Assembly (NCBI GenBank): GCA_021234155.1
Contig: JAJEKV010000038.1
Span: 11,303,190 to 11,367,189 of the forward strand
Origin: Isoetes taiwanensis
Taxonomy: Eukaryota > Streptophyta > Lycopodiopsida > Isoetales > Isoetaceae
DNA: 64,000 nt
Reading direction: 5' to 3'
Within the stretch, counting starts at the first letter, position 1; the number at the start of each line of letters is the position of its first letter. This document shows positions 1 through 47,940 of this stretch, piece by piece. The notes beneath the pieces were generated by a model, which did not search any database, was not told the DNA's origin, and was given only the letters and a program-made list of their open reading frames with translations. The translations under genes were made by a program, and so were the position numbers.

Positions 1-2640
1 AAACACGACAAGACGCCAGTGCTTGGCCGTTGTGACTTGTTTGATGCCGTCGACGAAAGCGTTAAACTCTGAAAATTTAAAAGGCTGATTGTCGTAACGG
101 CTGTTCTTTAGTTTAAAGCCATAAGGAAGGTCCGCAATCACCAGTGTGAAATCCTGTGGCTTTACTGTCCCAACCAATTTAGTGCAGTCCCCGTGAATGA
201 TGGAAAACAAATTATTTTGATTAAACAAATTAAACTTTTCATAGTCAGAAGGCTCCACATCTAGAGTTCTTCTCTCTGCCAGTGTTCTTTCTTCTCGTGC
301 CAGTCTGACGAGGTGCATGAAACCTTCTGGCAGGTCCTTATTTTTCTTCTTGTTCTGCAAACAAAGGGGAGATTAAGACAGAGACAAGTAAAGTATGATG
401 TGTTTAGTCAGCGTACCCATCCTTCAAAATTTGGTGCGTACTGAAGCATACGCTCGTCGGATGTAGCTATGGGATAAAGCTCCTTGCACCTCTCCCACGT
501 CTCCACGTTGAGTTGCTCCATCAGACATGTCTGGCAGGTGATAACATTTTTTTGGCTAGAAAGAAAACCACAACCTTTTTAGCAGTTGAAAAGAGAAAAC
601 GTGAAGTAAACTATCTTCCTGCCACCTAAAGTTATTCTAGAATACAAGCGCTGTAAACAATATTTTTCTTGTTGCAGCAGTGTATTCCAGAATACACTTT
701 AACTGCAAAGAAGGAGCGAAAGTGTATTCTGGAATACACTTCTACAATGCAACAAGTTAGAGTGTGTATTCGTATCACGTTGGCCGACTCAAAGGAGTAA
801 AAGTGTATTCTGGAATACACTTTTACACTACAAGAAGTGAGAAGGTGTATTCTGGAATACACTTTCGTTCCCTCGAGGGTGAGAAAGCATTTCCAGGAGC
901 ACCAGATTGCTGTTATCTGGAGGAAGTTGTAGAATTCTACAAGTGAAAAGGCAGCAATGATTGTAATGCTTACTTGTGCAACTCCTTCGACATTTCTTCG
1001 AGTGTGAACTCCTTGTCCACCACCTTTTGCGTAAGCCGTTTCTAGTCATTACGGTCGGTGAACCCCCGCATCTCCCTCCGCATGTTGATGGTCATTTCTT
1101 TCTTTGGCACGTCGCTGCCTTTCTTCTTCTCCGACACCTTTCCCTTACTTTTTAGCTCACCGTGCTCAAACATATTAAATATTTCATTTTGGAGCTCCCA
1201 GATCTGCAAACAAAAAAAGAAACTTAGAAGCTAGTTGTACACTAAATCTTATTCTGGAATACGCTTGTAGCCTTACCCGGCCATCCCTCAACGCTTAGTG
1301 AAACCAATTGTCATGACCAATGAGTGATGCCTCGTTTGTTAAGCCTCGTCGTATTTAAGGCAACACTCAATGGCACAAGCTTCTTTAAGTTCAAGGGAGT
1401 ATCGTGGCTTTTTGAGATCCTCTCCGTACTTTTCCTTGAAGATGACATATTCTCTGTGCATGAATCTGATTTTGTCGACAAAGCTCATTTTGTCGGGCCA
1501 TCAGAGTGTTGGCAACGATTTTGGCTTCCTCGTCGGTCAAACCACGATGGATCGCATGGAGAGAACGCACAAGTACCTAGGATTCTTTTTTCTTTGTATA
1601 ATTGCCTCCTTTGCCTTTAAAGTCATGGTGGTTCCCACCCAAAACATAATGCGTATATGTGTCCGCATTTTCTCTATCATACTCTGCAGGAGTTGTGCAC
1701 TGCTCTCTATCAACAAGAACAACAATTGGAGCAACATGTGCATTGGGATTGCTCCGGATTCTGTCCTTGAGGTTCCTTAGATGGTCTGCATATATCTTTC
1801 GAACCTGCAGTGGTCGTTCTCCGGCTTCATTTTTGGAGGAAGCTTCATAGATGTGACCGGCAAATAAATGACACCTTGCACAAATTTGTGCAGGTTAATC
1901 TCTTCCATTTTTTCTGCTGTTTTATCAACCTTTTTTTCTTTGATGGCAATGCCACGTGCTTTGCCTTTCCCCTTCTTCTTCTTGTGTGCATCCTCAGGAG
2001 CATCTTCTGTTTCAATGATAGCCGTTTTTCTTTTCTTAGGCTCTTTAGCAGCTACGGTTTGCCTCTACTTCTTTGACGGTGGTGGAGGTGGCTGCTCTTC
2101 CGAACCTGATGAACTCACGGATGGGCTCGCAGACCGTGATGGACTCCCTGATAAATTCCCTTGATCTTCCTCTTCCCCGTGCTCTGATTCGCTGTGGGGG
2201 AACTCCTCGCTTTGTGTGCTACGAACGACATTGATTATGGACACAAGCGATCTCTTGTTGATACTTGTAAAGTGCCGGTGGATTTACTTTCACCAATCTA
2301 AAATAGGCTTCATCAACATGAATGAAACCTTGGGATGTCGCGAAAGACAGTCTCCCGCGTTGTCCCGACTCCCCAGCTACTTCACTCACAGCTTGAATGG
2401 TTCCCATGCAGACAAATTCTCTGTCATCGTACCTTTTTGAACCAGCACTCCGACAGACATGTAAGAACGTAAGGGTGTTGTACTTTCCAGCTGTACCCCT
2501 TGTGAAGAACCACTGAGTTTGGTAGTTCTCGTAAATCGCAGGCGAAGCAGTATCATCAACCCATCTCTGTGGGTGCGGTTTCTGACCGAGTTTAATGGTC
2601 TTCTTGTGATGTTTTTTGCTGCCATCTTGCCTGTACAAAA
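1..2640 (-). CDS. Large element-borne protein with C-terminal N6/N4 DNA methyltransferase-like domain (partial)
   Basis: Multi-exon gene on the minus strand, cut by the window edge. The first clear exon (about 2640-2219) gives a basic segment followed by an aromatic-rich stretch. A Ser/Pro/Lys-rich linker follows (about 2200-1860, with KKKKGKGKARG), then further exons at about 1740-1320, 1205-970, 545-415 and 355-1. Several joins have good splice signals, such as GGATGG|GTACGC near 421 and a TTGCAG acceptor near 355. The last two exons carry a CQTC motif, then FSIIHGDCTKLVG, then VIADLPYG, then HWRLVVF. This order matches the catalytic half of beta-class N6-adenine/N4-cytosine methyltransferases (GDC...motif IV DPPY, here DLPY), in which the AdoMet motif I comes later, outside this window. 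Two or more in-frame stops (for example TAG near 1045) and frame changes suggest decay. The gene runs divergently from the DUF7869 gene at 3584. Substrate and base specificity cannot be read. Confidence 0.6.
636..870. repeat. Array of AGTGTATTCCGGAATACACT-type palindromes in an intron
   Basis: Four close copies of a near-perfect 20-bp palindrome (AGTGTATTCYRGAATACACT, at about 680, 720, 801 and 844) plus a degenerate one at 636. They lie between two exons of the minus-strand methyltransferase gene. A further degenerate copy is at about 1248. Spacing is irregular (about 40-80 bp), and the sequence between copies is not conserved. Confidence 0.9.
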
Positions 2641-2867
2641 TGTGTGTAAAAACTTCTTTTTAGTGAAAACACTGGCATTAAAACTATTCCAGAATACAAA
2701 ATGACTTGAGAAAATGACAAAAAGAGTACAAAAAGAGGACAAAATAACCAAAACAACAATGCTTCCTTGACCAAAAAACAGGCCAAAACATGTCTAGAAA
2801 GCAGAAAAAACGCCCTAAATTCAAGAAAAAATTCAAAAGAATCGTCCTTTAAAAACCTAAAGTCACT

Positions 2868-3197
2868 AAAGTGTATTCCGGAATACACTTTGGCTTAACC
2901 CTGAAGCCAAAGTGTATTTCGGACGGAATACACTTTGGCTTAACCCTGAAGCCAAAGTGTATTTCGGAATTCCGAAATACACTTTAGGAATACACCACGC
3001 TTTCAAGGCAAAAGTGTATTCGAATACACCGCCTTCCTGTGAATGGCAAAAAGTGTATTCAGGAATACACTTTCCTTGTCACGCTAAAAAGCGAAAGTGT
3101 ATTCCGGAATACACTTTGGCTTCAGGGTGTAAGCCAAAGTGTATTCCGGAATACACTTTCGCCTTCACGCGAAGGCAAAACTGTATTCCAGAATAAG
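2868..3197. repeat. Dense palindrome array between the two divergent genes
   Basis: About eight copies of the GTGTATTC...GAATACAC palindrome in 330 bp, some with different centres: CCGG, CGAATTCCG-like, a direct TTC-GAA join, and CAGG. The arms are conserved while the centre varies, as expected for a dimeric binding site or small hairpins. A half-decayed copy lies at 2686 and another at about 3500. The array sits in the presumed common promoter region of the methyltransferase gene (-) and the DUF7869 gene (+). Confidence 0.9.
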
Positions 3198-3583
3198 AAA
3201 CAAACTAAAAAATGATGGTACGTTGTACTTAGTTGCTCACCTGTCCATGTCTTCTCTATGTGGAACGGAATACAGTCTCTGAATATTATATTCGATATTG
3301 GCGCCGGCTAATTTGAACTCGTGAGATTTGGAATACGAAACTGAAAGGCGCCAAAAATTTCCTTTTAAAGGTGTCCATTCCGTCTTGCTCGTTTTCTATG
3401 TGAAGTGGAATACGTTTGGCCTTACTGTTCTGCTCTAGTGTATTCGGGAATAGCTTTTAGTTTGCCTTTCGCTTAATTGTTGCAGGAACTTCTACTTGTA
3501 CTAGGCGGGCTTGTATTCTGGAATAAGAAAAGAAAAAAGAGAGAAACATTCTCTAAACTCTACATTGTTTTGCAGTTCTTAAG

Positions 3584-6500
3584 ATGACAAACCACTTCGT
3601 CAACAAACTTCCACCACCTTTCGTTGTCTCAAGCTCGTCTAGTTCTGAGGACACACTCGGGACCAACATCTTTTCTTCTGAAGACCGGTATTCTCCGACT
3701 CCTACCTCTACTTCATCGTTCTTGCTTCTTGAAGAGACACCGAGTCCAAAGACGTAAATGCACTTCCACCACCCTTCCAACGGCCACCAAGTCGATGGGG
3801 ACTTGACACCGGGATCTCCTTCCAAAGCATCAATACCGCCGGAGCATGCCGCCACCACCCTTCGTTCCATCCCCGGACCCTGAAGCTCCACAACAAAGGG
3901 TGCTCAAGAACAAGCTACCCCCTTTTGTAGTTTTAAGCCCCTTCGTTGCAAATATACAAGGAACACGAAAACACGTAAGACCGTGAGATTCACTATTTCT
4001 CTCACGGGACTTCACTACAAATGAGGACGACGCTCCAGCATGCACTCCTCTTCACACAACAACGGTTGTGACACATGGATTTGCAGAATTCCAGTCCGCT
4101 CTAAAGGAGATGTTTGCAAGAACTCCTTTTCAAGATGGTACAAGAACAGCTGATGCCACAACCTCTTATGGGCCATCACCATCCTTTAACAACTTCACGT
4201 GGTCTGTTTTCCTCTACAAGCACACCACTCAGGACAGAGGAAGTCACCCCCAGAGTAGAAGTTTCATCAGAAGATGAAGACACCAACGAGGAACAAAGAG
4301 ATTACATGTTCTCCAGCCAATCTTCAAAGAAATTCAAGGTGGATTTTGGTTTGAGGGCTTGCTCCTCTGTAAGAAGAAGAAATCTTATGGATGAACACAA
4401 AATGAGGAGACTTTTGAGAACTAAATGCTGCTCATTGGGTTGCATCAACAGATTTAACATGGCTAAATTACGAGCAGTTAGAGACAACTACAGTTCCATG
4501 ACATTGGCAGACCAGAATGCCTACTTAGCTTATCATGTAAGACCAGACCGCAACACCTTCTTGCACTACATTAACCGTCAAGAAGTTTGCCAGAAATGTT
4601 TTATGGTTGTCCACCGTTTAGGGTCCATCGTAATGTCTAGAATACACAAAAGATCGGACAAAAATCCAAGAATCGATGATCATTGTGGACCAAGAAGAGT
4701 TGTAACCATGCATGCCCTTGCTGCTGTGTCATGGATGGAGAAATATTTTAGAGAAACATGTGAGAAGCTACCTAACAGCAACATGTATCATTTAACTGAT
4801 AACATCACCAAAAAAGATGTTTTTAATGAGTACAAAGAGACTTGCACTCAGCTTCAGCACATCTCTTACTCACACTTCACCAGACTGTGGAAAAGTGAAT
4901 TCGGTCTTGTGAAAATTCCTAGAAAACATAGAATGTCTGTTTGCTCGAGGTGTGCAGAATTAAAGAGTCAACGAGAAACCGCGAAAGACGTGAGGTCGAA
5001 AGAAGTAAGTTCATGTTCTCCAATCTCTCACTTGTTTTCGAGAAAATGCTTTGACCCGATTTCTTCTACGATATTGTGCAATGTAACCTTGCCCTGACAT
5101 CGTGAACAACAAGCGCCAGAGAGAAGAAAGCTTGCCAAGCATAGAAAAAAGCTCTTTGAACGCCCACCGCAATACATGTCATTTGTGATTGATGGAATGG
5201 ACCAAAAAAAACAACTCTACCACATTTCTTTGAACATTCCTAAAGATGTGCGGAGGAATGTTTTGTTAAGGTCCACCTTGTAGGAGCTATGGTCTTCAAA
5301 GGAAGTCTAAGGTGCAAAGTATTTTTGACGTATCCAAACTTGCATGGTGACCCGAACCTCACAATTACAATTCTTAACAAGGTCCTGTGCGAGCAAGAGC
5401 AATTACCACCAGTGCTTTATCTGCAACTTGACAATACTACAAGGGAGAACAAGAATCAAACACTCTTTGCGTACTGTGCCATGTTAGTGGAGCTAGGGAT
5501 CTTTAGAAAAGTGAAGCTCGGTTTCTTACTTGTAGGCCACACTCATGATCAGATTGACCAAATGTTCAGCAGATTTTCTGTGCGCCTTAGAAGGAAGAAG
5601 GCTTTCTGTCTTCCTTCTTTAGTTCGAATTATTGAAGATTCTTACACTCCTACTCCAGTGGTCGATCTTCTTAAAGAGACTGCTGATTTCAGAGAGTTTG
5701 TTTTCTCTCAACGTTCAAACAGAGAACAAGCTGTGAACAAGTTGAATGATCTCACCTTTCAACATCATATCAAGTTCTACTTGAAGGATGGCCAAAGCTT
5801 CTTACAGGGGAAGAAGTATACCACAACTAAGGACTGGAGTCCACCAGAGGGATTACGCTTCCTTAAATATATTCCAGACACTTCCTTCATAGAACGTGTT
5901 GAGCAACTTCCTCTCAAAAATCCAAAGGAGTCCAAGCAGAAGAAAAGTACCCCAGAGTCATCCTTAAAAGCCATTGAAAATGGAATTTCCTCAGGCTTTA
6001 AGTACTTCTTAGAAGAAGATCGGATGTGGTGGAGTAATTTCTTTCTAACGTAAAATTGTTGTACAAAATATAGCTCTAAGACAGGTTGCAAGAACCATTT
6101 CAATGGCCTAACACCTTCCATCAACCCCAAACACCAAGCAGGTCCAAGCAAAGGCTACATTTGCACCGCAATGAAGAAGACGAGGAGGACCGAGTCATGT
6201 ACCTCGGACCAAGACGCAGGAATGAGCCTCAAAGTAATATCACAGAAATTACCAAAGGTATGCTAATTGCTCTTCCGACTGAGGAGGATGACAAAGGTCG
6301 ACCGTTCTGGATAGCAAAAGTGCTTGACATAGTCAAGGAGGAAGGCTTAGTCACTAAACTCAAGATTCATTGGCTTGCAACACGCTCAGAAAATGCTTTT
6401 GAAGGTAGAAATGAGAAGCTAAGGAAAAGGGAGAAAGTCCAAGAAGGTGGGTTGTAGGGACGAGCTGAACCTTAATGACGTGACTATATTGTGCTATGAT

Positions 6501-6815
6501 TTTAAATTGAAATCTGACAATCGCCTACTTTAAGACTATCAATTTGCTTAAAAAAGCTTGTAATTACGAAGAAGATGATGAAGAAGGTGGTGACAATGCT
6601 TCACCGTCTGTTGATAGTGATGAGGAAGATAACTCAAGCACTTCCTCGAGTGACAGTGAAAGAAGTGAAGGTGATGACGATGGCATAAATGAATATGAAG
6701 ACGTCCTGGATCCCTCTCTCATCACTCCTCACACTTTTGCACATAACTGTCTGAGTCTTAGAAAAAAAGATGTAAATTTTGCATGTGAATATGAAGATTC
6801 TATCTTCAAATTTTG
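3584..6815 (+). CDS. DUF7869-family protein, probable DDE/RNase H-fold transposase (with frameshifts)
   Basis: The reading starts at MTNHFVNKLPPPF, a Ser/Pro-rich N-terminus that soon changes frame. The best-kept part is 4114-5007, with a basic segment and Cys pairs (TKCCSLGC, CQKCF), followed by a GAA|GTAAGT donor. The core resumes near 5097 with a first acidic motif (FVIDGMDQKK) and, after a one-base shift near 5275, LYLQLDNTTRENKN and VGHTHDQIDQMFSRFS. These are the hallmark blocks of DUF7869 proteins. Acidic residues at the ends of predicted strands fit an RNase H-like nuclease. The C-terminus (6150-6455) has a chromatin-reader-like segment (RPFWIAKVLDI...KIHWL) and an acidic Ser/Asp tail ending at 6815. 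It is nearly complete and only lightly damaged, so this may be a fairly young copy. Family recognition is firm; the transposase role is inferred. Confidence 0.75.
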
Positions 6816-7046
6816 AGAATACTACAGTTTCGATTCTGGACTTACTTCAATTTTTGTTAAATATTTTATCCTCTCGAAATTAGAGTTTTCTCTTAAAACA
6901 TATTTGCTAAGAAAAGTGACACTTTAAAAAAGTCAATTTTTCGCAAAAAAAAAAAAAATTAGTCATTTGGGGGTCAAAATAGAATTTCATGCATCTTTTT
7001 TTTAACCTCGTTTTACCCCTTTTTTGTAAAAAAAAAAAGGGAATCT

Positions 7047-8060
7047 TTGAGGAATATTCCTTTTGCTCTCGTTTCAATGATTTGCTCCCGTTTAATACGC
7101 AACTTTGTTAAGAGCAATTTGCAGTTGGTGTCTTCCTCTTCCTCTCAAGAGATTATGATCCCTTGTTTGGTCATCTTGTCTGCTTCTTTTTTCTTGGATA
7201 AGAGTGTTAAGTCCAGCTTGCCATTTGTCTTGGAGAGGTCAATGAACCACTCAGCACCCTCATCCATTTCTTCTTCAGGGCATGGAGGTTTAGTGGTTGC
7301 TTTAAGAATAGGCCCTTCATCATCTAAGGTAAGATCATATGATGTTACACCTGGGTCATCTACCCTTGGCCTCTTACCAGGAATAGACCCGAAATTATTA
7401 AGGGTCTTCTTCCTCTTTGGCGCTGCAAAACAAATAAGAAGCTTAAACTAGTTTAAGTCACGCTTGACGTGTTTCTAACTCCTTTTATAGATAATTCTTA
7501 AAGTGATTCACCCTAAGCATAGATCTATATCCTTATTGAACACTACTATACCTAATTATCCCTTCAATACAAACAACCTCCAGTTCACGCTGGGCGTATA
7601 CCCCTCTGCTTGAAACTACAGAAAACTATAGCAAAATTATATTCTAAAAGCCGATATTCAGAGAATTGAAAGAAACTAATATACCTTTATGTTGTAAGAA
7701 AGGAAACCCAATTCATGTAAAGCATAATACTCTCTATATAGTCTGTATTCTGTCGCAAAAAGACAAATTAAATACCTTGAATAGGGGTCTGATCAACATC
7801 CTCTGTAACTTGAGAAGAGCCAGGTTTTGAAATTCCTCGGCCACCGATTGTCGAATCACCTAGTAACAGAGCCGAAAGGCCGCTCGGACAAGCGGTTGAG
7901 CTGCTCGAAGAAAAAGAGATGCCAAGAAATAGCTTTCTACCTGCACGAAAAATTTGAATTTCAAACGAATCCAAAATGGGGTTTCGAAATATTCGTGAAA
8001 CAAAATAATAATGACGAAGATTTAGTTTAAAAAAAACCTGGCCACCGAGATCTTTCATTG
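7047..8060 (-). pseudogene. 5' fragment of the second element family (copy 1a)
   Basis: The stretch 7113-7322 is closely similar, in the same orientation, to 23647-23856, which codes on the minus strand (ends of the exon encoding DEDVEWYLDLAK). The minus-strand reading upstream (7768-8058) gives a short Ser-rich segment and may be the start of the same protein. Similarity to the 23.6-kb copy begins abruptly near 7113, where the element at 1-7100 presumably ends. Stops and small indels are present and no full frame survives. The homology is seen directly; the assignment as a first exon is inference. Confidence 0.5.
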
Positions 8061-8259
8061 ATTACTCTTATTCTGCCTAAATGTAGTTAATCTAATCTTT
8101 CGTCTGATTTGAATTTTTTTCAGCTGCCTGTATTTCGCGAGCGCCTGTGATTTCGAGAACTCGAGACAACTTCCTCATGAATGTCTATAGAAGTCTGCTA
8201 AGCATCTCATTCTTATAACTTCTATAAGATTTTCCGATAATAACTGTCTGAATAGGCAA

Positions 8260-8970
8260 TTGTCCGCAGTATCCGTGATAACCCAAGCGACTCTAGCGAT
8301 TCCCATGTTTGCCAAATCAACACTAAAATAATGTCAGTATAAGAACGTAAGGGGACTAATAGAAAAGGACACTTCTAACAGTCAGAGGAGGACGGAGATT
8401 AAGGGTGGCGAAGAAATTATTTCACGCATAGCTATACTTAATATTGTTCGTCTTGCAGAAGAAATCACGACAGACGTGATTTAATTTATCTTAAGTCTCA
8501 AATTAAATCGCACTAAGCATGCTTTATTTATATTTTATTGTCAGACTAAATCCTGTCGAGCACGATTTAGTTAAGCCTTATAACGCCAAAGTAAATCACG
8601 CCTGGCGCATTTGTGTTGTTGAAATGTATGATATAAGGGTGTGCATGCTTACCATATTTTACTGACTAGATACCATGTTTGATGTTTCAACTTCCCTTGC
8701 GTTTCTAACAAGGTTGTGATGTTCGACCTAAATGAATTTCTTTGTAAGACTTTTGCAAAAAATTTTGCTAGATGAGGCATTTATGTTATTTCGAGTTGGT
8801 ATTTGGTCATCCATGGAACTTCAGAACATCAAGGATACTGTGGAGGCACTGGGGGAAATGGGTAGGCATTGGTTGACCTTTTGGGATCAACATAAATGTG
8901 TGAAGTTCAATAATTCTAAAGATCCAACAGGCAGGCAAGCCTATCTTCATCAAATACTTGAGTAACATGA
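8260..8970 (+). pseudogene. 3' fragment of the second element family with FCP1/NLI (HAD) domain (copy 1b)
   Basis: Plus-strand counterpart of the minus-strand gene end at 20620-19880. Shared stretches include 8275-8440 and the HAD domain: VVMFDLNEFLCKTF (motif I region, about 8714-8755) and then FRVGIWSSME with LTFWDQHKC. An internal deletion near 8755-8770 joins motif I directly to the LDEAF helix, shifting the frame. The usual Gly after DLN in motif I is Glu here. The fragment lies in inverted orientation relative to the 5' fragment at 7047-8060, so this is not a simple gene copy. Non-functional. Confidence 0.65.
8460..8620. repeat. Degenerate CACGCC-GGCGTG palindromes
   Basis: Four weak copies of the palindrome typical of the second element family, for example ATCACGCCTGGCGCAT near 8594 and ATCACGACAGACGTGATT near 8465. 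They are in the same relative place, upstream of the HAD exon, as the copies at 20285-20395. Single related sites occur at about 7463 and 7583. Confidence 0.6.
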
Positions 8971-12914: not shown

Positions 12915-15060
12915 ATGAAGATTTCTGGACTCAGAATCGTTTTGCCTCTGCTTCTAGTCTGCCTAAGTTGCTTCCATAGCACAGGCGCAGTTACTCGTTA
13001 CTACAATTTTCAGGTTCAGTCTTTGTACCTTATGTTCCGATGCTACTAACTACTCAGCAGTTTTGATTTCTGATACTTGAATATATTTGAACAGATTGAT
13101 TATGCAAACTACACAGTTGCTTGCCACAGTAAGCAAATCGTAGCAGTAAATGGTCAATCACCAGGACCAACCATTCATATCACTAAAGGCGATAGAGTTA
13201 TTGTGAATGTAACGAATTTGGTTTCACATAATGTGACAATTCACTGGTCAGTTTGTGTTTTGTCATTAAGCTATAACTTAAGTTACTTAAAGAGCTTTTA
13301 AATGACAAAAAAGGACTGTGTGGTCTTTATTGCAGGCATGGAATAAACCAAAGATTTTCATCCTGGGCAGATGGTCCTGCGTATATAACGCAGTGTCCGA
13401 TTCAAACTGGTAGATCCTACATATACAACTTTACTGTGCCAGATCAACAAGGAACTCTGTTTTGGCATGCGCATATATCCTGGCTGAGGGGCACAGTGTA
13501 TGGAGCATTTATCATAGACCCTCCTGCTAATAAAAGGCTTCCGTTTCGAAAGCCTCATGGAGCACACACTTTATTACTTGGTAATAATCAGGGGACTTTT
13601 GCCAAATTAGCATTTCTGGGTTTTATTAGAAGATTTCTGACAGTAAAGTGGCTCCTGATTTTTCAGGGGAATGGTGGAATGAAGATCTTGAGCAGGTTGA
13701 AAATGATGCAAGGATAAATGGAACAGCTCCTGCCTTGTCGAATGCTTACCTGATCAATGGTCATCCTGGTCCCCTCTTCAACTGCTCGGCCCATGGTAAG
13801 TTTAAAGTTACACACAAGCATAATTTAGCAGGCTGAATCCTCATGAATTCGTACTCATATATATGTTTCTACCCTTTTTTTTTCCTTGGCAGACACAGAG
13901 ATTGTACATGTTAAGAAGGGTCGACGACATCTTCTCAGAGTCATCAACAATGCCTTAGAAACAGACCTATTCATTACAGTTGCAAACCACAATCTTACAG
14001 TGGTAGAAACTGATGCATGCTACACAAAGAGGATCACAAATACCAGTTTTCTGATCTCTCCAGGCCAGACCTACAGTTTCCTCCTCACTGCAAATCAACC
14101 AGTAGGCCAATACTACATAGTAATTTCCCCCTTCGAGAGATCTGAAATAAACGGTGTACAAGAAACACCAGCATTAGCAATTCTGAGATACAAAGGAGCA
14201 AATACTTCTTCCAAACCACTTTATCCAGACAACGTGCCAAGCAAAAGGGACACAGGCTTTTTTGACCAATCCCAAAGGGATATAAGGTTCTTAAATTCAA
14301 AGGAATATCCTGCAGAGGTGCCACAGACAGTAGACGTGAATCTGTACTGGGTAGTGTCGCTAAATGTAGAGCCATGCACTGTAACTCCAAGTTCTCGATG
14401 TTTAGGGCCATACAACAGAAGCTTTGCAAGCTCGATAAACAACATTACATTCCAGACACCACAGATATCTCTTTTGGAAGCATACTACCACAATATAAGC
14501 GGAGTTTACACTACAGATTTTCCTGCCTATCCGGCTACTACATATGACTACACAGGGCAGCAGCTTGACGCCAGCAGATTAGCATCAGAAAGGGGTACAA
14601 AGGTGACAGAGATTCCATGCGGTTCCAACGTTCAGCTCATCATCCAAGGTACCATCAATTTCCAGGCTGAAGCCCACCCCTTCCACTTGCATGGTTACGA
14701 CTTCTACGTTGTGGGTTATGGAGAGGGTAACTATGACCCTGCCAAAGACCCTGCTACTTTTAACCTTGTCGACCCTGCTAGAAGAAACACTGGCATGGTC
14801 ACTAAGGCTGGCTGGACTGCTTTGAGATTCAAGGCTGATAACCCAGGTTCGTATCCCTTTGCAAGTTACCTTAATTGCATACATTGCCAGTTTTGTTTGC
14901 TGACAAGTTCTTTTGATTTTGTGGTTTAGGTGTTTGGTTGATGCATTGCCACTTTGATGGACACGTTTCATGGGGAATGGAGACTGCTTTTGTTGTTACC
15001 AATGGTGCCCAAGCAGACCACGTCCTTCCTCCACCACCTCCTGATTTGCCCACTTGCTAG
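12915..15060 (+). CDS. Laccase (multicopper oxidase), six exons, secreted
   Basis: The exons are 12915-13013, 13095-13246, 13336-13580, 13667-13795, 13893-14846 and 14930-15060 (1710 bp, 569 aa), all with GT-AG introns. Exon sizes 152, 245 and 129 are the conserved plant laccase sizes. Residues 1-25 are a signal peptide (hydrophobic VLPLLLVCL core), and the mature chain starts TRYYNF. All four copper motifs are present: HWHG (83-86, split by intron 2), WHAHISW, HPFHLHG and HCHFDGHVSWGM. Many NxT/S glycosylation sites are visible. Plant laccases are apoplastic enzymes that oxidise phenolics and monolignols with O2 during lignification and related reactions; the substrate here is not known. The residue at the axial position of the type 1 copper is Met, where most plant laccases have Leu. 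No stop or frameshift is seen, so this looks like a functional host gene. Ascorbate oxidase is the other multicopper option, but the exon pattern and TRYY start fit laccase. Confidence 0.95.
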
Positions 15061-19076: not shown

Positions 19077-20284
19077 CAATTCTGAAAAATAGAGGCAGTA
19101 AGTCTAGGCTTACGAGTTGAAGAGCAGTAAGGTGAGCGAAGGATCTTCTAGCTATAGGCCCTAATCCAAGGCATGGGATACTAGTAATTGTTGAAAAAAG
19201 GAAACCATTGTTGCAAGGATGGGAAAGCATAATTCAATCAGGAATATTGAAGACAACCACCGTACTTGATAGCACCTCATCATAGACCATCATCCAATTA
19301 AATTGGGATTATGTCAACTCCAAAATCATGCCAACCTGCTGTTGTCTTCTAGAGGGTTTTTGTTTTTTTTTTTAATCTTTTTTTTTTGGACTTGATAAAT
19401 ATTAACATAAGGTTGCAATTCACGTGTGTCGTTTCATATGCGAATTAAAATATGCAAAAATGAAGAGCAAGTTGCTAAGATAGATGAGACCAAAATTGAA
19501 CAGCATTTAGATGAAAATATTAGGTTTGATAATAACAGATTGCATTATTTGGGAGGCAATTGCAGACCCGAAATTATCGATACATGACACAAATATCATA
19601 CAAAAATATCATATATTCCAATAAAATATTAAGGGATCAATCTATGTTTTTCCCGTATTAACAAGTTGTGGTTCCATGTCAGCCGTTCTATCCAGTTCTA
19701 GGTGTGAATCTAACATTTCGCGCGCCGCCATCCCCATAACCAGAAAATCATCTGTCGCAAAATTTTTTATTGTAAAAAGGTGGATTCAGGGCCTGCGTTT
19801 GATTGTAGAAGCATTTGAGAGCATCATCATCCACTATGATTATATCATCCTTTTTCTCGATACCAAGTTCGTCCATCATGTTACTCAAGTGTTTGATGAA
19901 GACAGGTTTGCCTGTTGAATCCTTGGGATTAGTAAACTTCACACATTTGTTCTGGTCCCAAAAGGTCAACCAATGTCTGCGCATTTTCCCCAGTGCCTCC
20001 AAAGTATCCTTGATGTTCTTTAGTTCCATGGATGACCAAATACCAACTCGAAATAACCTGAATGCCTCATCTAGTATCTCCTTCAAGTGCGGCCACAGAT
20101 AGATTCACTTGGTGTTTGATTCTACTGGTGTCTGATGAAACTGATCTCTAGCCACTTTATTTTTCAGAAAAGTCTTACAAAGGACTCCGTTTAGGTCGAA
20201 TACCACAACCTTCTTAGAAACGCAAGGCAAGCTGAAACATCAAGCATGTATCTGGTCAACAAGATATGATCAGACAAATAATAC

Positions 20285-20395
20285 AAACGCGTCAGGCGTG
20301 ATTTGAGTGTGACAATGAAATACAATCAAAGCACGCTTGACGCGATTTCATTCAAAGCTAAGATAAATGAAATCACGCGTGGCGCGATTTTAGAT
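20285..20395. repeat. CACGC-GCGTG palindromes next to the HAD exon
   Basis: Three copies (ACGCGTCAGGCGTGATTT, AGCACGCTTGACGCGATTT and ATCACGCGTGGCGCGATTT) in the intron upstream of the HAD exons, of the same family as the array at 22452-22836. Confidence 0.75.
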
Positions 20396-22451
20396 GCAAG
20401 GCCATACCTATCGTCTTCAGTTTTGCTGCCGTCGTCAGCGTCATTCTCCCCTTCGCCACCCTTAATCTCCGTGCTCTTCTGACTGTTAGAATTGTTATTT
20501 TCTATTAGTTCCTCTACGTCCTTCACAACTGACATTATTTTAGTATTGATTTGGCAAACCTGTGAATCACTAGAGTCGCTTGGGTTGCCAATGGCCCCTT
20601 CACTCTCGGTTGCCTTATCAATTAGATCCTTCTTAACCTGTTAATCTATTTTATTGTTGCTTGCATCACCCGCAAGGGAGGCAAGGATATTCCCTATGTT
20701 CGCCTTCATCACATTACTTTGAGCAGCCAGTTTAGCAGCCACTTGGATTGCTTTCCTTATCAAGCTGCGGATTACTAGTTCCCTCACCAGAACCATCGTC
20801 CATTTTTGAATTGGCCAAGTCCACGAGACTTTTGATTGCTGAAGATTTCAGGTTGCCATAAGGGCCTTTAGGAGATTTGGCAAGTACATCCATGAGGAAT
20901 GTTCAAGAAAGTCTTTGGCCTGCTCATCACTCACAAAACATTGACATCTTCTAACACCTATAAGAGCCTCTCGGACAATATAACCTCCAACATGAAGCTC
21001 CAAGCAGGTTGTATCAATTGGAGCAAATGCCTCGACGAGGTAAGCAGCCACAGAGGGGGGAAATCCATTTTTATTTAAGGGGCCCTTCTCCTTAGTTAGT
21101 AGCTCGTACATGATTTCACCACTTAAGAGAGGGTCCCGATCCTCATCCTTTTCTGACTCATCCTGTTCCTAATCCTAATCCTGATCCGTATGATAGAATA
21201 TAGTTGTTAAGTCTGGATCATCTAGAAGAAAACATTCCCATGCACTGCTATTGTCACCCTTGGCCTTAGCATTATCATATTCTTCGTCTGACAACATGGA
21301 TATCATAATAAAGATCACATGTGCCATCTTCCATGATGTTCGCAGCTCATTATCCTTAACATCATATATTAGGCATCCCTCCCTAATAACTTTGAGGCAC
21401 TCCAGATCATGAGCAGTGGATAGTGCATGCAGATGTGAGTCACCCGAAGGACAAACGATGACAATAGTAAAGGACATCTCAATTGTCAATCCTATACAGC
21501 TGGTAAAGAAGATGTTGTAGTCCTTCTAGTTCATGCCCATATCTCCTCTCCCACCACTGCTATATGTTTCTAAGGCAAGTAGTTGATTCTGGCAAGAGAC
21601 CTTTGTACCCAATGGAGACTGAATACTGGACAGTGTCTTCTTCTCCAGTAATCTTCTTCACAAGGGACAATTTTCTTCTCAACTCGGCCAGTACCTTAGG
21701 GGGTAGAGTCTCCTTATGTTTTGCATTTTTTGCCTTCCAATTCTTTAGGAAGTCCTTTGACCAGAATACAAACTTCTTGATGTCATCATTACTGACCTTG
21801 TATTTGTCCAGCAATCCAATTTTAGATAATGCCACATCCCCTGATAGCCTTTGTAACTCAGCTCCTACAGCTAACTTCATTGTACGTACATCCTTCACAT
21901 GGCTACAGCACTCAACGAAGGACATCCTATCCTTAGTGAAAGCACTCTTCTTGTATAAGACTTCCTTCTTCAGGCACTGGTCTAAAACCCAAATGGTCTC
22001 AGTGTCGTCTAGCCCCTGAGTCTTTCTCATCTCTGTCACATTCAAGTCAAAGATGCTTACATCAATAGGAGGCACTCTGCCCATAGTATCTGGCAGCTTC
22101 TTTTGTGCATAAGCATCCCAGAATTCATTCCACTTGAGCCATACTGCCTCCTTACAAAAGACAATCTTATACGAGTTTGTTGGACCTGACCTGCTACATG
22201 TGCTATCAAAAGGATCAGCAATGTCATCACCACCTTTTTTCTTCGATTTTCTTGCAGTCTTCTTCTTCTCCTGTATAATTGTCTACGATAGAGTCCGCTC
22301 CAGCAGCTTGAACGCCTCAGACTTTGACCCGCCCTGTCTGGTGGGTCATGGGTAGCCATATTCCACCCACTGTTGACAGTCGTGGCGCAGTTGCTCCACG
22401 TATGGACTACAATAGTACAGACATTGAATCAGTATCATAGAACAGAAACAT

Positions 22452-22836
22452 GCCGGGCGCGATTTGAATAGAATAGAATTGATCAACATAGAAAGCACGC
22501 CTGGCGTGAAATGAATTAAGCTACTAATGCAATTCACGCCAGGCGTGCTTTTAAAACAAAGCAATAATAGCGAGGCGTGCTTCTAAATCAAATGAATTCA
22601 CGCCAGGCGTGCTTTTACATCAATACAATTCACGCCAGGCGTGCTTTTAAATCAATTGAATTCACGCCAGACATGCTTCTAAATCAATTGAATTCACGCT
22701 AGGCGTGCTTTTAGATCAAAATAATTCACGCCTGGCGTGAATTGTTTTGCTTTAAAATCATGCCTGGCGTGAATTGTTTTGATTTAAAAGCACGCTTGGC
22801 ATGAATTCAATTGATTTAGAAGCACGCCTGAATACT
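22452..22836. repeat. Dense array of CACGCCAGGCGTG palindromes in an intron
   Basis: About thirteen copies in 385 bp, spaced about 30 bp, of the form AATTCACGCCAGGCGTGCTT with TTTAAATCAA linkers. Halfway (about 22735) the outer flanks flip orientation, so the array itself is roughly mirror-symmetric. It lies between two exons of the minus-strand gene. Confidence 0.92.
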
Positions 22837-23879
22837 AAAATAACATCCTTAATGTAGTTACCTCTTATATAGAAATGTCTTTCCCATTTCATTCAAAGTT
22901 GCACTAATCTCAGCCAAATCTGCAGGTGAAGTATTGGCATCCAAGAGTCGACACCTCCTATATGCATAGTGATTGTAGAATACGGTTTGACCTGTTTGTT
23001 CTGCCTGCCTAATGAGGGCCTTTTAATGTCATCATTTAATAATAACTCCTTGACGTTCGTCCAGACAACAGGCTTGTTCAAGATCATATCCTAAGGTAAC
23101 ACATCCGCTGGCATAGGCATTTGACCTGGATTATTAATCATGCTCTGAACAATCTCCATGGCATGTGCTGGATCATATCTTCTGCTAACATAAATGGAGC
23201 TTGGTGAACGGATGAGGGACTTCACATGGATCTGAAAAGTTTCCTTAAGACCCAATGGATAATGGTCAGAGTACTTATTCAGCTTGTTCATGGCCTCTAG
23301 CTGTGCCACCCTGTCTTGTTCATTCTAAAAAACAGAAACCTCCATGCCTTCGACAACTGCAGGTTGAACATCCTTCCCTAGATTTAGGACCCTCCTAGAA
23401 GCTTTCAAGTCAGCTAATTCTCTAGCTTGCTGCAACTAGTGACTTGGTATCGGTTTATTGAACATGCCTCTACGCACAACTGTAACCCCTTGGCAAATAG
23501 ATATTGCGTAACTGCTACATTGGTGGGCCAGCCATACTTAAAACATGTCTCACCATTCACATCTGTCTTCATGAACGTATCCTTGTATGCAATAGCTCTA
23601 CAGTGAGTAAGTCTGAGCAGATATTTCTTCTGCTTATGTGTCATCTCCAAGAGCAATTTGCAGTTGGTGTCGTTCTCTTCCTCACAAGAGATTAGCATCC
23701 CTTGTTTGGTCATCTTGTCTGCTTTTTTTTTTTTTTTTCCGGAGAAGAGCGTTAAGTCGAGCTTGCCATTTATCTTGGCGAGGTCAAGGTACCATTCGAC
23801 ATCCTCATCCATTTCCTCTTCAGGGCACGCAGGGTCAGTGGTTGCTATAAGAATAGCACTACAAGAGAATGATGGCTAA

Positions 23880-32654: not shown

Positions 32655-35600
32655 TCACGAAAAATTATTGCAAATAAGAAACTCTAATTGTAGTTTTACC
32701 TGTTGGACATGTTCTGGAAAGACAAAGGGTTGAGAACTTGAATTAGCTTTATATGCAGCTTTTGTAGTGTCCACTAGTTGAAAGCCATACTTGTCAAATT
32801 TTGTTGATGCTCGTTGTCCAATAATATCAGGCCTATACCAATGGCATTGCAAGAGCACCACATGCGATGAACCAAGGCAGACCTATAGAATCATGAAAAA
32901 AGGATTAGTATATTAGTGTACTCGTATATTACAACATATTTACAAGCACTAATAGAACCTGTAAAATCTGTTGAATTTTGCCAAAATATTCTATCTCAGC
33001 TTCAATTGGACGCTTGTCTTTAGCACTACTACGACTCGTAGATTGAAATATTGCGGAAATGCCTAAATCTTGTGTCACTTGCTTTGCATCTAAGTCTTGC
33101 ACTCGTAAATGCCAACCATATGCCCACATACTTTTATAACTTGTAGCATATTCTTCAACTCCAAAAGCAAGATCAAGCAACAACGGATCTACTTGCTCCT
33201 TATTCTGAACCATACGTTGAACTTCAATTTTGAGCCACTCTGGAAAGTTCATAACTTGCTCCCTTGTACGCTATGCCCGCACAAGATACCATGTTGTGAT
33301 TGTTCGTATTTTCTGTTATAAACAAATTGAAAGTTAACTTTCTACATTAAAGCACCCATCGCCATCTAAATTATAAAACTGAAATACTTACAATCTCCAT
33401 GTGTCAATGATGGTTGAATTTGCTAGAATGCATTCATGTGCTTGTTGTTGCAATGATAAATCCAACTTTATCAAAGTACCTTTACCCTCCAAGACCTCGG
33501 GGATGTGTTACGCCTCCAAAACACCATCATATTCACCTAAAAATTCAATATTTCTATCCTCTTTCATGCTAATTAGAGTCATTGCTTCATTAATTATGTA
33601 TCCTTCAAGAATGGATCCCCATTGGATATGCCATGTTATGTAACATATTTTTTGAGATGTTTCAAGAATCTCTCAATGGGGTACATCCATCGCAAGGTCC
33701 ACATGCCCACAAATAGCTAGCTCTTCTACTAGATGTATGATGAGATGCGTCATGATCGTGAACAAAGATGGTGGGAAATGCTTCTCAAGCAAGCATAACA
33801 CATTCACAGCTTCCCCCTTCAAGTTACCCATCTCACTTAAATGAATCTCTTTTGCAGTAATTTGCTTAAACAAAGAACTGAGTCTTAATATTGACATTCT
33901 TTCTCCTTCTTCTAGGCAACCACGTATAGCCAAAGGAAGGAACTGCTGAAGAAGAATATGATAATCATGTGATTTCATAGATTTGAGCTTTCCATTTGCA
34001 ACACATTTTTTGAAGTTAGAGGACAATCCCGTAGGAGGTTTCACACTTTGTATAACAGCAAAGAAAGCTCTTTTTTCTTCTTTTGTAAGGACATATGGAG
34101 CATGAGGTAAAATCACTTTACCATTTTGTGATTGAGGCCAAAGCAACTCTCGAATTCCAATCTCCCTCATGTCTTCTCGTACCTTTTCATTGTCCTTGTC
34201 AGCATCTCCAAGTATTGTCTTAATTATATTTTCTGCAACATTTTTCTCCACGTGCATCACATCCAGTGTGTTTCGAATAAGAAGATGGTAATATGTAATA
34301 GGAAATAAGATAGTTACATGTAAAGCATAAGTTCCTAAGTACATATACAAGCATGACATACCTCCCAATAAGGAAGCTCGTAAAATATAGAAAGACGTTT
34401 CCACCCCGTCCTCTTTGTTGGATCATCATCTGCATCATCAACTTTTCTTTTTTGTTTCAATTCTTTTCGAGATAACTCCAATCTGTCCCATTCTTCCTTT
34501 TCCAGTATCCAGTTTTGTATATCAGTAGGCTTCACAAGATTTGGAGCTGTCCCAACTTCAATTTTCCCGTCAAATGCTTTCATTTTCCGAAAATTATGAT
34601 CAACAGGGAGATATCGGCGATGGCCTGCATAAATGAATCTTTTAAGACTGGTAGACTTGCGAACATGAATATCAGGTCCACAGTGGGGACATGCTCGATA
34701 TCCATGGGTTACACACCCTGCCAACAAACCATATGCAGGAAAATCATGTATAGTCCACATGATCATTGAACGCAAGGTAAATTCCCTCTCCAAAGTTGGC
34801 TTGCTGAAGTCAAATGCCTGTACTCCTTCCCAAAGCTTATGAAACTCTTCCACAATAAGACTCATGTACACATCAATTTTTGAAGAAGGTACCTGTTGTG
34901 GTCCAGGAATCAATAATATCAACATAATAAAATGTGGCTTTGTGGCTAACCATGGTTCAATATTGTAATTGACCAACATAACAGGCCAAGTACTCCAGTT
35001 AGATCTCATTTCGCTAAATGGGCTTACACCATCAAATGCCAAACCAAACCTGATGTTGCGAGGGTCTTCAAAGAAAGTCGCACCACATGTTGCCGATGTG
35101 TCGCCATGCCGGTGAATCAAGACATACCTACAAATGCCATCTCAGATTATACATTGTTGGCATGCCATGTCATGTGTCTTGCCATTGATGGACATTCATA
35201 CAGTTTTAATAGTCGAGGTATGACAGGGAAGTAACGCACAATTTTACGTGCACTAGGTTTGCCTTTTTTGCTCCATCGGCTTTCTTGGCATTTTTCATTA
35301 GGGCAAGACTCAAGATTAGCATACTCCCCTCTGTAAAGAACACAATCATTTGGGCAAGCATGGATAGATTCATATTCCAAACCAAGTTCCTTCATCAACT
35401 TTTGTGCATAATAAGATGAACGTGGCAGTACGTTTCCCTTGGGTAACAATTGTCCTCCCAGAACTTTTAGAAGGTCATCAAGACTAGCATTGGACCATCC
35501 ATGCATAGTCTGCAAATCAAGAATCAAAAGTATAGCAGATAACATGTTCAATGAGCTTCCGTCATATAATGGCTTTAATGGATCACTAGTGCTGTCACAT

Positions 35601-35676
35601 AATGGATCTCCATCCGTTATCTGATCTCCATCAGTTATTTCATCTCCGTCACTTACTGGACTTCCCCTTACATTGC
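32655..35676 (-). pseudogene. TNP2-like transposase of CACTA B, main part (5' exon displaced)
   Basis: From 35676 down: a DGD-rich linker, LKPLYDGSS and SIHACPNDCVLYRGEY with CPNEKC (35551-35147). The Transposase_21 core lies at 35120-34335, with FGLAFDGVSPFSEM, WPVMLVNYN, HDFPAYGLLAGCVTHGYRAC and CPHCG. LDVMHVEKNV and the DUF4218 block follow (34330-33673: MKSHDYHILLQQFLPLAIRG). The C-terminal DUF4216-like exons are 33252-32929 and 32861-32655. Most frames are open. The N-terminal exon sits 12.5 kb upstream because of the inserted element, so the gene cannot be expressed intact unless that insert is spliced out as an intron. Confidence 0.87.
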
Positions 35677-35680
35677 TACA

Positions 35681-35705
35681 AAGTCGTATTTAATTAAAGT
35701 GGGAC
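35681..35705 (+). repeat. Left terminal inverted repeat of the 12.5-kb element
   Basis: 25 bp, AAGTCGTATTTAATTAAAGT then GGGAC, an exact reverse complement of 48142-48166. The target duplication TACA is directly outside. Confidence 0.93.
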
Positions 35706-36965: not shown

Positions 36966-37889
36966 CACGCTCGATTACAATATTCACACAATTTGACTAT
37001 CCAAAGCGTGGGTCACTCTTCTTGTTCACCAAAGTATTTGTCGCCCATAGATTTCATGATCGGCTTGCTTTCTCGGATCGGGTTCCGTGGAGGCTCGGAT
37101 AGTTCGTAAGCACATCGGCGACAAGAATGGCAAAGAGGATTCCGCCAAGATGTGATGTGAGTCCGGAAGGACAACCACCTATCCGCCTCATATTCTTCGT
37201 GTCGATATGGCTTAGCAATGATTGTATTTTATGCTGCTATGATAGCACTTGTAGGCTGAGTCATCTATGATCGCGGTTGTGTTTGCCATAGTCCCGAATT
37301 GTTTCATAAACGCCGGCCCAAATTCTTTTCACCATTATAGGCTTCCCTTTGTGATGGTCGGATCGAGGTCCTTCACATGCTCGACCCTTTCGCTTCCCCA
37401 AACGAACTTGAACTTCAAAACTGAAATGCCGAGAACACCAAGAACATTGACAATATTTTTCTTTTGCCATACAAGACCATATGCCCACTTTGAATCCCCC
37501 GCCTGTGCACCATTCAATAATTTCCTTAGCTCTAGGCCCTGATACACTATTTTATGCCTGCTTTTGATTGGGATCGCGAGGTGTTAATCTCGGGACATCT
37601 TTGTCGTGGTATACCGCAGCTAATACTCCATTGACGCCAAATATTACAAGCTTGGTGGGACCAGCTAGATCCCGCTTGGAGTTTGGCTCACCATATTTCC
37701 GGGCTCATCGGGATCCAAATGCGGATCATTATCTTCTCCGGTCCTTTCGGGCTCATATAGTTGTTCTTGCCTCGATTGTCTTTGGGAAGTGCATTCTCCT
37801 CCTCGTGGAAGTGAACCGATGCTTTCCAATGACAATGATCCGAGTCGCTGACATGGAAGGAATTCTGAAATGATGACATCCGCCGAAGG

Positions 37890-45600: not shown

Positions 45601-47940
45601 GACAAGAGTGTTGCAACCTAGATTGCACAAAGGCAAAGACAATGTGGATGACCTCATGCGCATAAGGTCCCAATACATTGGACGCCTTCAAAAAGATAGG
45701 ATTAATTTCATTTACTCCTTATGTAGGAATTCCAAATATGATGAAAACACAGACTGCTTACTATATCAATTGAGGGGCATGAAGGTATGTATGAGAGCAT
45801 TGAGATGGATTCTTGGGGTGAGCAAGTCTTCATTTTACAGACATCGGGAGCAAAGTTAGAAAAGGGCACACTTTGTTCCAACATGGTAATGCACTCACTT
45901 TGAAACCTAGAGCAAATACTCTAAAGGCCATTGGCTTCTTCGAGAGCTTTGTGAGATACATGTCTCAATCTATGCCCCACAAGTCGGAGGTGAACGAAAG
46001 CACGTGCAAAGTAGTGGTGCAAAAGAGTGTTGCCACAACACTATATCCAAAAGGAGTGCCTTAAGGAGGTCAACTCCATCCTAGAAACTACTAGAGGTAG
46101 GCCTCTTTCTCAATCACATTTCAGCAAGTTATGGAGCACTCACTTCTGGACGTGAGTGTCCTACAACACATGCCATTCTCAAAGTGCAACACTTGCATTC
46201 AACTCAAGGATACACTTGCATCAACCGCAATAGAGAAAGAAAGAATGGCAATTAGGGAGCAATTTGCGCATCACCAAAGGGACCAAATATCATGTAGACA
46301 GCTTTGTATTGGCAAAGGAGAACATTTTCTCGAGATGCACCGACAAATTTTTGTGTATAATTCATGATAAGATGGACCAACACAAGACTTTCTTGCCAAA
46401 GCTAGATCCTTTACCCAAGCGCTTGTCAAAACGCCGTCGATGAAAGTAAGTCCAAGGGTGTATTAACACATGGTCATAGAACCGAACATATGGTCATTTT
46501 GTGCTTGATCTATGGAGAGATGATCCAAACTTCCATGTGAGCTCTATTTTCAAGTGCCTCGAGAACACTAGAGAAAGGATCGATAGAAGGGAGGAGGTAT
46601 TCCCTTCAAAGACCCATTTTTGAGGCTTTGATGGATGATCAACCGCTTTGTTACCAAAGGCGATAAAAAGCTCACATCCAAGGTGTCTAGTGAATCAAGG
46701 AGGACTTGGGATGATTTTTTACTTGAGAAATCACCGCCTAAGGAGCTATGTGTGTGGGCTTGGACAACCTGGAAAGAAAACAAGAATAGATGGATGTTTG
46801 GGGCAATGTCATACTTGACAAAGAAGTGGGAGTATTCAAAGTTGTGAAAGTGGGATTCATGATGGTTGGGCATACGATGATGATATAGATGGATTCTTTG
46901 GAACTTTCTCCACCAAGCTCAAGAGAGAAAACATGACCACTCTCCCCGAACTAATGGATGTGTTTGAGAGCTGCATTGACCCCCAACCCAATGGCTTTCT
47001 TTGATGGATGAGGTTGCAGATTGGAAATCATTTGTAGAAGGATACTTGCTAGATGGCAAGGACCAGTTGATGTGACACACAAAGCCACTTCAGTTCAAGT
47101 TTTGGGTTAGGGATGGAATACCAATCATGCAATATAAGTGGAGACCAGGTGACAAGTTGTGGATGCCTGTACAAGGTATCGAAGTTGTGGCAAAGGGTGT
47201 GCTGGTGAAGTTCTCATTCCTAAAGGGCAGCCAAAACCACTACCTCCCTTCAAGATACCAAAGACTCTAGCCAACCGGTGAAGGGCATCAAGGATTACAT
47301 AACGATTGGGATGATGTTCAAATGGAAAGCACACCTCCACTCTTAAGAAAAATCAAATGGACTCCCCTAATCAAGTAACGGGAGAAAGTTGTGACATGCT
47401 TAGAAACCGAATGCCCATGTGGGAGGGAGCTAAGAGACGGTTCTGCCGAGTCAAGATGGGAGGGTTCTCAAGGTGCAAGCACGCCTAAGAATGCTCACTT
47501 GGGTCCCAACAAGGGTTCCAAGTGGTTTTGGGGAAGTAAGGCCTCAAAGCCAAGTGGTTTGATCTTCCCCGAAAGTGGGATCCCTTTGAGGACATCAAGG
47601 AAGGATACTTTGTGCTAGTAAGGCCCGATGATGAGGATCGGCCCAATATGGTTAGGGGTGGCACTCTCCTCGATGTGACCACCACTATGCCCGATGGAGA
47701 GGAGTTGCGTCCCCGGATTCCAAATTCAATATTGGGAGCCCATTGGGAGACACAAGAAGGGCAACTTGAAGGAGCAATACACCGATCGGCCGGGGAGAAG
47801 AAGTGGAGGGCAATTATGCCGACCCTCAAAGGAGGGAATTGGTGGAGTGTGTGGTATGGTCATATCCAAGTTCTCACATTGCAAAAGACAACACACACAA
47901 GATCCCAAGAAAGGAGATGGACAAGGCCATGAGCAACCTC
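45600..47940 (+). pseudogene. DUF7869-family transposase-like gene of the 12.5-kb element, frameshifted
   Basis: Homologous blocks occur in the same order as in the gene at 3584-6815: a CC..C basic segment ending GVSKSSFYRHRE (45608-45856), FSKCNTCIQLKDTL (46190), IHDKMDQHKT with the first acidic motif (about 46355-46385), a degraded LDN block WKENKNRWMFGAMSYLTKK (46770-46830), a VGHTYDDIDGFFGTFSTKL-like block (about 46862-46920), and a C-terminal RPDDEDRP segment with a Trp-rich stretch (47612-47930). At least eight frame changes are needed. The Asp of the LDN motif is lost in the surviving frame. This protein is clearly diverged from the 3584-6815 copy, so two families are represented. Confidence 0.75.

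Follow-up and report, generated by a model that had tools for sequence, protein, structure and literature searches.

What would a plant transposon do with a DNA methyltransferase of its own? The question is raised by a 64,000-nucleotide stretch of the genome of Isoetes taiwanensis (assembly GCA_021234155.1, contig JAJEKV010000038.1, positions 11,303,190 to 11,367,189 of the forward strand, C1043:11303190-11367189 in our numbering; 'the window' is this whole stretch); the first-pass annotation, made from the letters alone, described positions 1 to 6815 as an element that pairs a DNA N6/N4 methyltransferase-like gene on the minus strand with a divergent DUF7869 transposase-like gene on the plus strand. 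We searched the genome (1.66 Gb in 1,110 contigs) and compared the window copy with other genome stretches and copies, labeled L001–L031, C232, and C1100; P0001 is a database protein. The explanation that joins the results, to which we assign a probability of about 0.7, is a Sola-like cut-and-paste transposon of about 8.4 kb whose own methyltransferase would bind palindromes and modify the element in cis.

The borders of the element were placed by comparing the host gene that it interrupts, a copy of another minus-strand gene, with an uninterrupted relative that the window also contains, at 23.6 kb. They are defined by these features:

1..7109: right 7,109 bp of a DNA transposon of 8,366 bp, recognized by inverted repeats, target duplication, and interrupted host sequence
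L009:8744-10000 (G000:C1043:11301933-11303189), beyond the left edge of the window: left 1,257 bp of the element
L009:8744-8767: left terminal inverted repeat, AACATGATTGCAAATTAAACGGGA, partner of the right repeat
7086..7109, minus strand: right terminal inverted repeat, AACAAAGTTGCGTATTAAACGGGA read inward
7110..7113: target site duplication AAGA, 4 bp

The element had been described as positions 1 to 6815; its start lies outside the window, 1,257 bp to the left (L009:8744), and its end is at 7109, where the right inverted repeat is followed directly by AAGA. The inverted repeats are about 24 bp long, with adenines in both strands. All seven of the copies for which both ends were located are flanked by perfect 4-bp target duplications (AAGA, AATG, AATT, TTAT, CTAG, TTAA, and AAAA); the remaining copies had one end or none within their stretch. 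Internal look-alikes of the inverted repeats, with 6–7 edits, were excluded as ends (L001, L004, L008, L009, L011, L015, L016, and L019); L018 was counted despite 6 edits per side, both of its repeats being at the termini with matching CTAG. The interrupted gene is one copy of a second, decayed minus-strand gene family (window 19700-23900, with pieces at 7110-8960 and in L009) that has a NIF/FCP1-like phosphatase domain at its end (PF03031, E = 1.7e-11).

The pair of genes is shared by other copies. Among 11 further stretches around DUF7869 genes, ten hold methyltransferase-gene sequence in divergent orientation and nine hold the exon with motif IV; L011 holds the N-terminal part of the methyltransferase gene only, and L019, a truncated copy, holds none of it. 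Conversely, two of three stretches around methyltransferase exons contain a DUF7869 gene (L029 and L031, not L030). Genome-wide, we used two lists ordered by resemblance to the window copy, that is, the best 143 of 9,499 DUF7869 matches and the best 150 of 2,406 methyltransferase matches; among the matches listed, the two genes come within 20 kb of each other in 37 cases; 36 of these pairs, counting the one in the window, are divergent, and 21 of the 36 are 4.9–5.9 kb apart. A partner within the lists is found for 36 of the 143 DUF7869 places and 36 of the 150 methyltransferase places, and for the rest the best matches listed cannot tell. Pairing by chance would give about 0.5 pairs (143 × 150 × 40 kb / 1.658 Gb) vs the 37 found. 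The divergent pair annotated in the window thus recurs in other genomic copies. A separate window subfamily lacking the transposase was considered and rejected: C232 and C1100 also carry the DUF7869 gene (both element ends were found for C232, the left end only for C1100).

The methyltransferase gene occupies the left part of the window copy:

1..357, minus strand: motif-IV exon, IIHGDC...IADLPYG, continuing into L009:9911-10000
418..545, minus strand: linker exon, an open frame whose edges look splice-like by eye; other copies have matching sequence
974..1203, minus strand: exon with one in-frame stop near 1043
1330..1482, minus strand: conserved segment after the ParB-like region, FVDKIRFMHREYVIFKEKYGE...
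1480..1902, minus strand: tentative ParB-like region, RKIYADHLRNLKDRIRSNP...HYVLGGNH...GLTDEEAKIVAN, with frame breaks in the window copy, open in L010 and L020
1903..2253, minus strand: charged linker
2219..2644, minus strand: N-terminal domain of no known family

The stretch FSIIHGDC...IADLPYG...HWRLVVF, on which the methyltransferase assignment had been based, lies on the minus strand where it was placed, and the gene extends well past it, with matched exons up to about 2644. A six-frame search of the 64-kb window finds the pattern GDC...D[LP]PY[GN] a single time; a chance motif was ruled out by 150 Markov-simulated windows, in which the mean count was 0. The minus-strand frame extends beyond the left edge of the window via ENLVW; another exon there (L009:9101-9766), the C-terminal one, has the sequence YKTN...NHYQKPQKLINHLLDMFSRPGDWVLDAFSGSGTT...VAVDIDKEAVQFIKMRL and contains motif X and FSGSG. 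Together with its Pfam match to PF01555 (N6_N4_Mtase) at E = 5.4e-16, this supplies the S-adenosylmethionine-binding half that had been sought left of position 1. The same exon of L010 and L020 matches PF01555 at E = 1.5e-16 and 2.1e-17, and the three copies score 59.6, 61.4, and 64.3 bits vs the curated cut-off of 26.7. In the PDB, a profile built from five copies finds MboIIA, CcrM, and RsrI (1g60, 6pbd, and 1eg2). D[LI]PY is kept in all 15 copies that have the motif-IV exon, and FSGSG is intact in 11 of the 15. Along the gene the order of the motifs is IV, then X, then I. This order characterizes the beta class of DNA methyltransferases, and the D-x-P-Y form of motif IV leans towards adenine. 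The motif order and the PF01555 matches bear out the assigned class, and the minus-strand gene is thus predicted to encode a complete beta-class N6-adenine/N4-cytosine (N6A/N4C) DNA methyltransferase.

The motif-IV exon has weak matches that are mostly DNA methyltransferases; its single-sequence model has a predicted local distance difference test score (pLDDT) of 37.6 and is useless for the fold. Protein-database searches with the read-through methyltransferase protein gave no matches; tblastn of the same protein against phages gave E-values of 0.9–3 only, and 13 of the 15 matches listed are annotated as methyltransferases or methylases. No viral contig was found with the motif-IV exon as query; with the methyltransferase core, one weak locus with a 33% match was noted (IMG/VR contig L034, 5001-5144).

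On the other strand, the DUF7869 gene occupies the right part of the window copy:

4105..5002, plus strand: N-terminal exon, Cys-rich
5125..5280, plus strand: start of the catalytic core, with the first Asp in IDGMDQ and a frame break at the 3' end
5244..6053, plus strand: core (PF25273), with the second Asp in LQLDN and the third in GHTHDQID; the model is that of the closest relative, P0001
6080..6816 (6080-6457 plus an acidic tail at 6511-6816), plus strand: C-terminal part, resembling the end of P0001

The gene matches PF25273 with E = 3e-52 (177.5 bits vs a cut-off of 26), and the three motifs first quoted from it (DGMDQ, LDNTTRENKN, and VGHTHDQID) are all in place. Its description as 'nearly intact' is too favorable, given the frame break near 5244-5280 and the ragged N-terminal part. 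The closest database relative is P0001 (75% identity over 64% of the query), and the next relatives include proteins of the fern Ceratopteris and the liverwort Riccia. The predicted fold of P0001 is an RNase H-like integrase core in which the three Asp residues are separated by 79 and 41 residues. The model and the conservation support the assignment of the DUF7869 protein as a three-aspartate (DDD) transposase/integrase core; the predicted fold, the inverted repeats, and the target duplications together support the reading of the gene as a transposase. The Foldseek PDB list for the P0001 model contains RNase H-like folds and also MazF and several BAH domains; the BAH domains (DNMT1, AIPP3, EBS, and polybromo), several of which have a probability of at least 0.9 but E-values of at least 0.065, may concern the C-terminal part. 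A DUF7869 profile run against PDB sequences found xylanases only (E = 0.03–0.04), and a search of viral contigs with DUF7869 found none.

We conclude from substitution ratios that both genes are under purifying selection. Medians of the nonsynonymous to synonymous ratio (pN/pS) were taken only from pairs of copies with pS of 0.1–0.6; the pairs are not independent, and decayed copies raise the ratio. With these limits, the median is 0.24 for the methyltransferase core (range 0.06–0.55; 14 of 78 pairs), 0.15 for the motif-IV exon (0.09–1.11; 12 of 77), 0.23 for the ParB-like region (0.04–0.58; 13 of 78), and 0.14 for DUF7869 (0.08–0.73; 65 of 78). An earlier dN/dS run gave medians of 0.09–0.12, with many dS values saturated. 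Between the window copy and L014 and L016, the methyltransferase core has pS of 0.64 and 0.68 and pN of just 0.05 and 0.04; low pN at such high pS indicates that the enzyme has been kept by selection.

The two genes have also diverged to different extents. When the window copy is compared with L014, L015, and L016, pS is only 0.10, 0.09, and 0.08 in DUF7869 vs 0.84, 0.82, and 0.83 in the motif-IV exon and, for L015, 0.62 in the methyltransferase core, close to the core values of the other two given above. Within element positions 5000–5500, nucleotide identity between the window copy and L016, in 250-bp bins, jumps from 60% to 88%; it is 45–85% to the left of this step and 87–98% to the right. 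Trees of the two halves for 14 copies reject each other in the approximately unbiased (AU) test (p = 6e-76 and 1.5e-67); L011 and L030 were left out, and the DUF7869 rows of C232 and L029 are long-branched, probably as frame-break noise. A smaller block also stands out: the window copy and its sisters C232 and C1100 are 64–79% identical in the three 500-bp bins 3500-4999, that is, the N-terminal domain and the palindrome array, vs 88–98% in the other bins, and in that block C232 and C1100 are 79–95% alike. The conflicting trees, the identity steps, and the contrast in pS therefore show that elements have exchanged halves and the central block; the methyltransferase half (left repeat, gene, and array) and the transposase half (transposase and right repeat) behave as exchangeable modules.

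What the methyltransferase might recognize is suggested by palindromes in the non-coding parts of the element:

633..859 (633, 683, 725, 806, and 848): five TATTCNNGAATA palindromes in a non-coding array
1250..1261: one palindrome, TATTCTGGAATA, lying between matched exons
2685..3525 (2685, 2874, 3056, 3100, 3142, 3184, 3441, and 3514): 8 palindromes TATTCNNGAATA between the divergent genes

The array is one of TATTCCGGAATA; the palindromes from 3056 to 3184 are spaced by 44, 42, and 42 bp. Fourteen occur in the first 6,850 bases of the window, and the exact motif is absent from 6851-64000. The 16 copies counted all have palindromes inside the element stretch, 206 in total; coding matches make up 45% of the counted sequence but contain only 6 of the 206, and 73 of the 130 neighbor distances under 200 bp are 40–43 bp. 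L019, outside this count, has no palindrome, which is uninformative because the copy is truncated and its methyltransferase half is missing. In five copies (the window part, L010, L012, L018, and L020), the palindromes are confined to the methyltransferase half and the region between the genes, with one exception about 0.4 kb from the right end (L020:9526). Because the phased array adjoins a gene whose product combines a putative DNA-binding half with a methyltransferase half, these data suggest that this protein binds the array. Elsewhere in the window, the second gene family has a non-coding palindrome array of the same layout and other sequence (CACGCC-N-GGCGTG, 32-bp spacing; 22496-22803 and 20288-20386).

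The putative DNA-binding half is best read in L020, where 4054-5472 is one open frame of 473 residues comprising the N-terminal domain of no known family, the charged linker, and the ParB-like region, which reads RPLQVRKIYADHLRNLKDRIRSNP...PLVVLVDR...HYVLGGNHSFKARR...GLTDEEAKIIAN. 'ParB-like' is a tentative name, kept mainly because a published Ectocarpus gene has ParB-like and methyltransferase domains. PF20188 (DUF6551) matches the region with E = 0.003–0.07, under its cut-off; searches of the region against phages and the PDB gave nothing relevant, and none were found among prokaryote contigs with the N-terminal/ParB-like exon.

According to the joint explanation, the methyltransferase protein would use its N-terminal or ParB-like part to bind the palindromes, whose arrays, with a spacing of about four helical turns, occupy the region between the genes and non-coding stretches of the methyltransferase gene itself; the enzyme would then act in cis, modifying adenine (cytosine N4 is less likely) within the element. 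Of the possible effects, control of the two divergent promoters would be the most likely, and it would either keep the copies expressed against host silencing or limit the transposase. The first-pass annotation had put forward self-marking, masking, and copy-number control as candidate roles. That all of this forms one self-modification system, in which a selected methyltransferase recognizes a private phased array that lies between the genes and within the introns of its own gene, places marks in cis on the element, and is swapped with its half as a cassette against a nearly constant transposase half, is quite possible but on balance doubtful.

Several results weigh against the joint explanation. 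Most copies read look broken in one or both genes, and the window copy is broken in both; its methyltransferase gene is interrupted by several frame breaks and by in-frame stops, including those near 1043 and 2066. Single-pair pN/pS values reach 0.55, 1.11, 0.58, and 0.73 in the four regions, as decayed copies would give. The motif-IV exon alone has no significant match to any methyltransferase family (Pfam included), and Foldseek of the transposase model gives no PDB match at E ≤ 0.001, the best being Argonaute PIWI and others. For the ParB-like region, L020 has weak matches to phrog_1033 (E = 0.007) and phrog_723 (E = 0.018), both 'ParB-like partition protein', and L010 has no match to any ParB PHROG; an NCBIfam search gave nothing; and PF02195 (ParB N-terminal) has 0 matches in the genome at E ≤ 0.001 with 2 candidates scored, in a search that gives matches in 10 of 14 control genomes. 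Finally, the central bases of the 206 palindromes are CG in 83, CA in 47, and TG in 45, a pattern as left by deamination of 5-methylcytosine (5mC); host cytosine methylation has thus probably reached these copies, which suggests that self-marking, if any, failed to exclude it.

The broken state of both genes in the window copy would also be expected if unrelated repeats had come to lie together by chance or had fused and decayed; the near-uniform divergence and recurrent spacing of the pairs among the matches listed, and the ends and target duplications common to the copies, leave this with practically no probability, and we count it as refuted. A further reading leaves the methyltransferase protein out: the palindromes would be structural repeats or binding sites of host transcription factors, and their TTCNNGAA core, which resembles known stress-response sites, could be cited in its favor; their absence from the remaining 57 kb of the window, their phasing at 41–42 bp, and their avoidance of coding matches make it unlikely, although it deserves serious attention.

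The methyltransferase might instead act on transposition, with methylated sites in the inverted repeats or the transposase region gating transposase binding or tying excision to replication; Dam methylation plays such a role for the bacterial elements IS10 and IS50. The linkage of a selected methyltransferase gene to the transposase gene would fit, as would the adenines in both strands of the 24-bp repeats, but the palindromes in the five copies mapped keep clear of the ends and sit to the left of the transposase gene, L020:9526 excepted, and we regard this role as distinctly unlikely. Selection for a function outside the element, that is, in trans on the host or rival elements or as defense cargo, could account for a methyltransferase half that has its own history and is often much older than the adjoining transposase half; the presence of one palindrome type inside the element in every copy counted argues for an in-element target, and such an outside function is very unlikely. 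The joint explanation, that is, a methyltransferase that would act in cis on its own transposon, is the one that we prefer.

The closest described relative is Sola1-1_Ec32 of Ectocarpus, a Sola-1 transposon in which a ParB-like plus N4C/N6A methyltransferase gene lies on the strand opposite the transposase (PMC12477816); that paper also states that similar ParB-methyltransferase proteins occur on green and red algal transposons, as reported by Iyer in 2011 and Petroll in 2025. By this description, the shared feature is a ParB-like (tentative here) and methyltransferase gene on the other strand from the transposase; however, Sola1-1_Ec32 is 21.5 kb long and from a brown alga, whereas the present element is 8.4 kb long and from a plant, and the available text of PMC12477816 mentions neither a palindrome array nor module exchange. 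Sola elements are described as having a DDD transposase, 4-bp duplications, sizes of mostly 2–9 kb, and a presence in the moss Physcomitrella (PMC10741241, in the text available), with terminal inverted repeats of 11–1124 bp; the Fanzor paper PMC3627910, available in part, is a further source on the superfamily. Because the 4-bp duplications, the modeled DDD core, and the size (8,366 bp) agree, as do the repeats of about 24 bp, the element fits a Sola-like assignment by features alone, with DUF7869 set beside Sola transposases by description.

The C-terminal catalytic half matches CcrM, MboIIA, and RsrI, whose class has the same IV-X-I order; unlike these, the present gene is multi-exon and has an extra N-terminal half. 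In the available part of PMC8885841, the N4-methylcytosine system of bdelloid rotifers is a similar case of bacterial-type amino-methylation in a eukaryote, but there it is a host epigenetic mark and here a transposon gene. As far as the available text of these papers goes, this kind of system is already known from algae. New, as far as we searched, are the plant setting, the full anatomy at high copy number, a methyltransferase kept by selection, the palindrome arrays, and the swapping of halves between elements. None of the titles and abstract openings screened describes a land-plant element of this type, the array, or half exchange, and DUF7869 is mentioned by no paper in the library searched; this is weak evidence, because that library lacks most subscription papers. 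The available parts of PMC12695648 and PMC6431247 contain nothing on such elements.

N6-methyladenine and N4-methylcytosine in eukaryotes, and their writers, are disputed; a multi-copy family with a selected bacterial-type methyltransferase is, in a plant, a definite candidate writer, and its expected target, the element with its palindromes, is equally definite. Should such marks be present, the family would exemplify transposons that set their own epigenetic state, and swapping methyltransferase halves would count as an uncommon route of transposon diversification.

The remainder of the window contains other fragments:

46030..47190, plus strand: degenerate remnant of another DUF7869 gene
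37264..37551, minus strand: NIF-phosphatase-like fragment, by eye
33673..35689, minus strand: CACTA (tnp2) element with Transposase_21 and DUF4218, with related fragments at 25000-27830, minus strand
13847..14929, plus strand: multicopper oxidase (laccase-like) gene fragment

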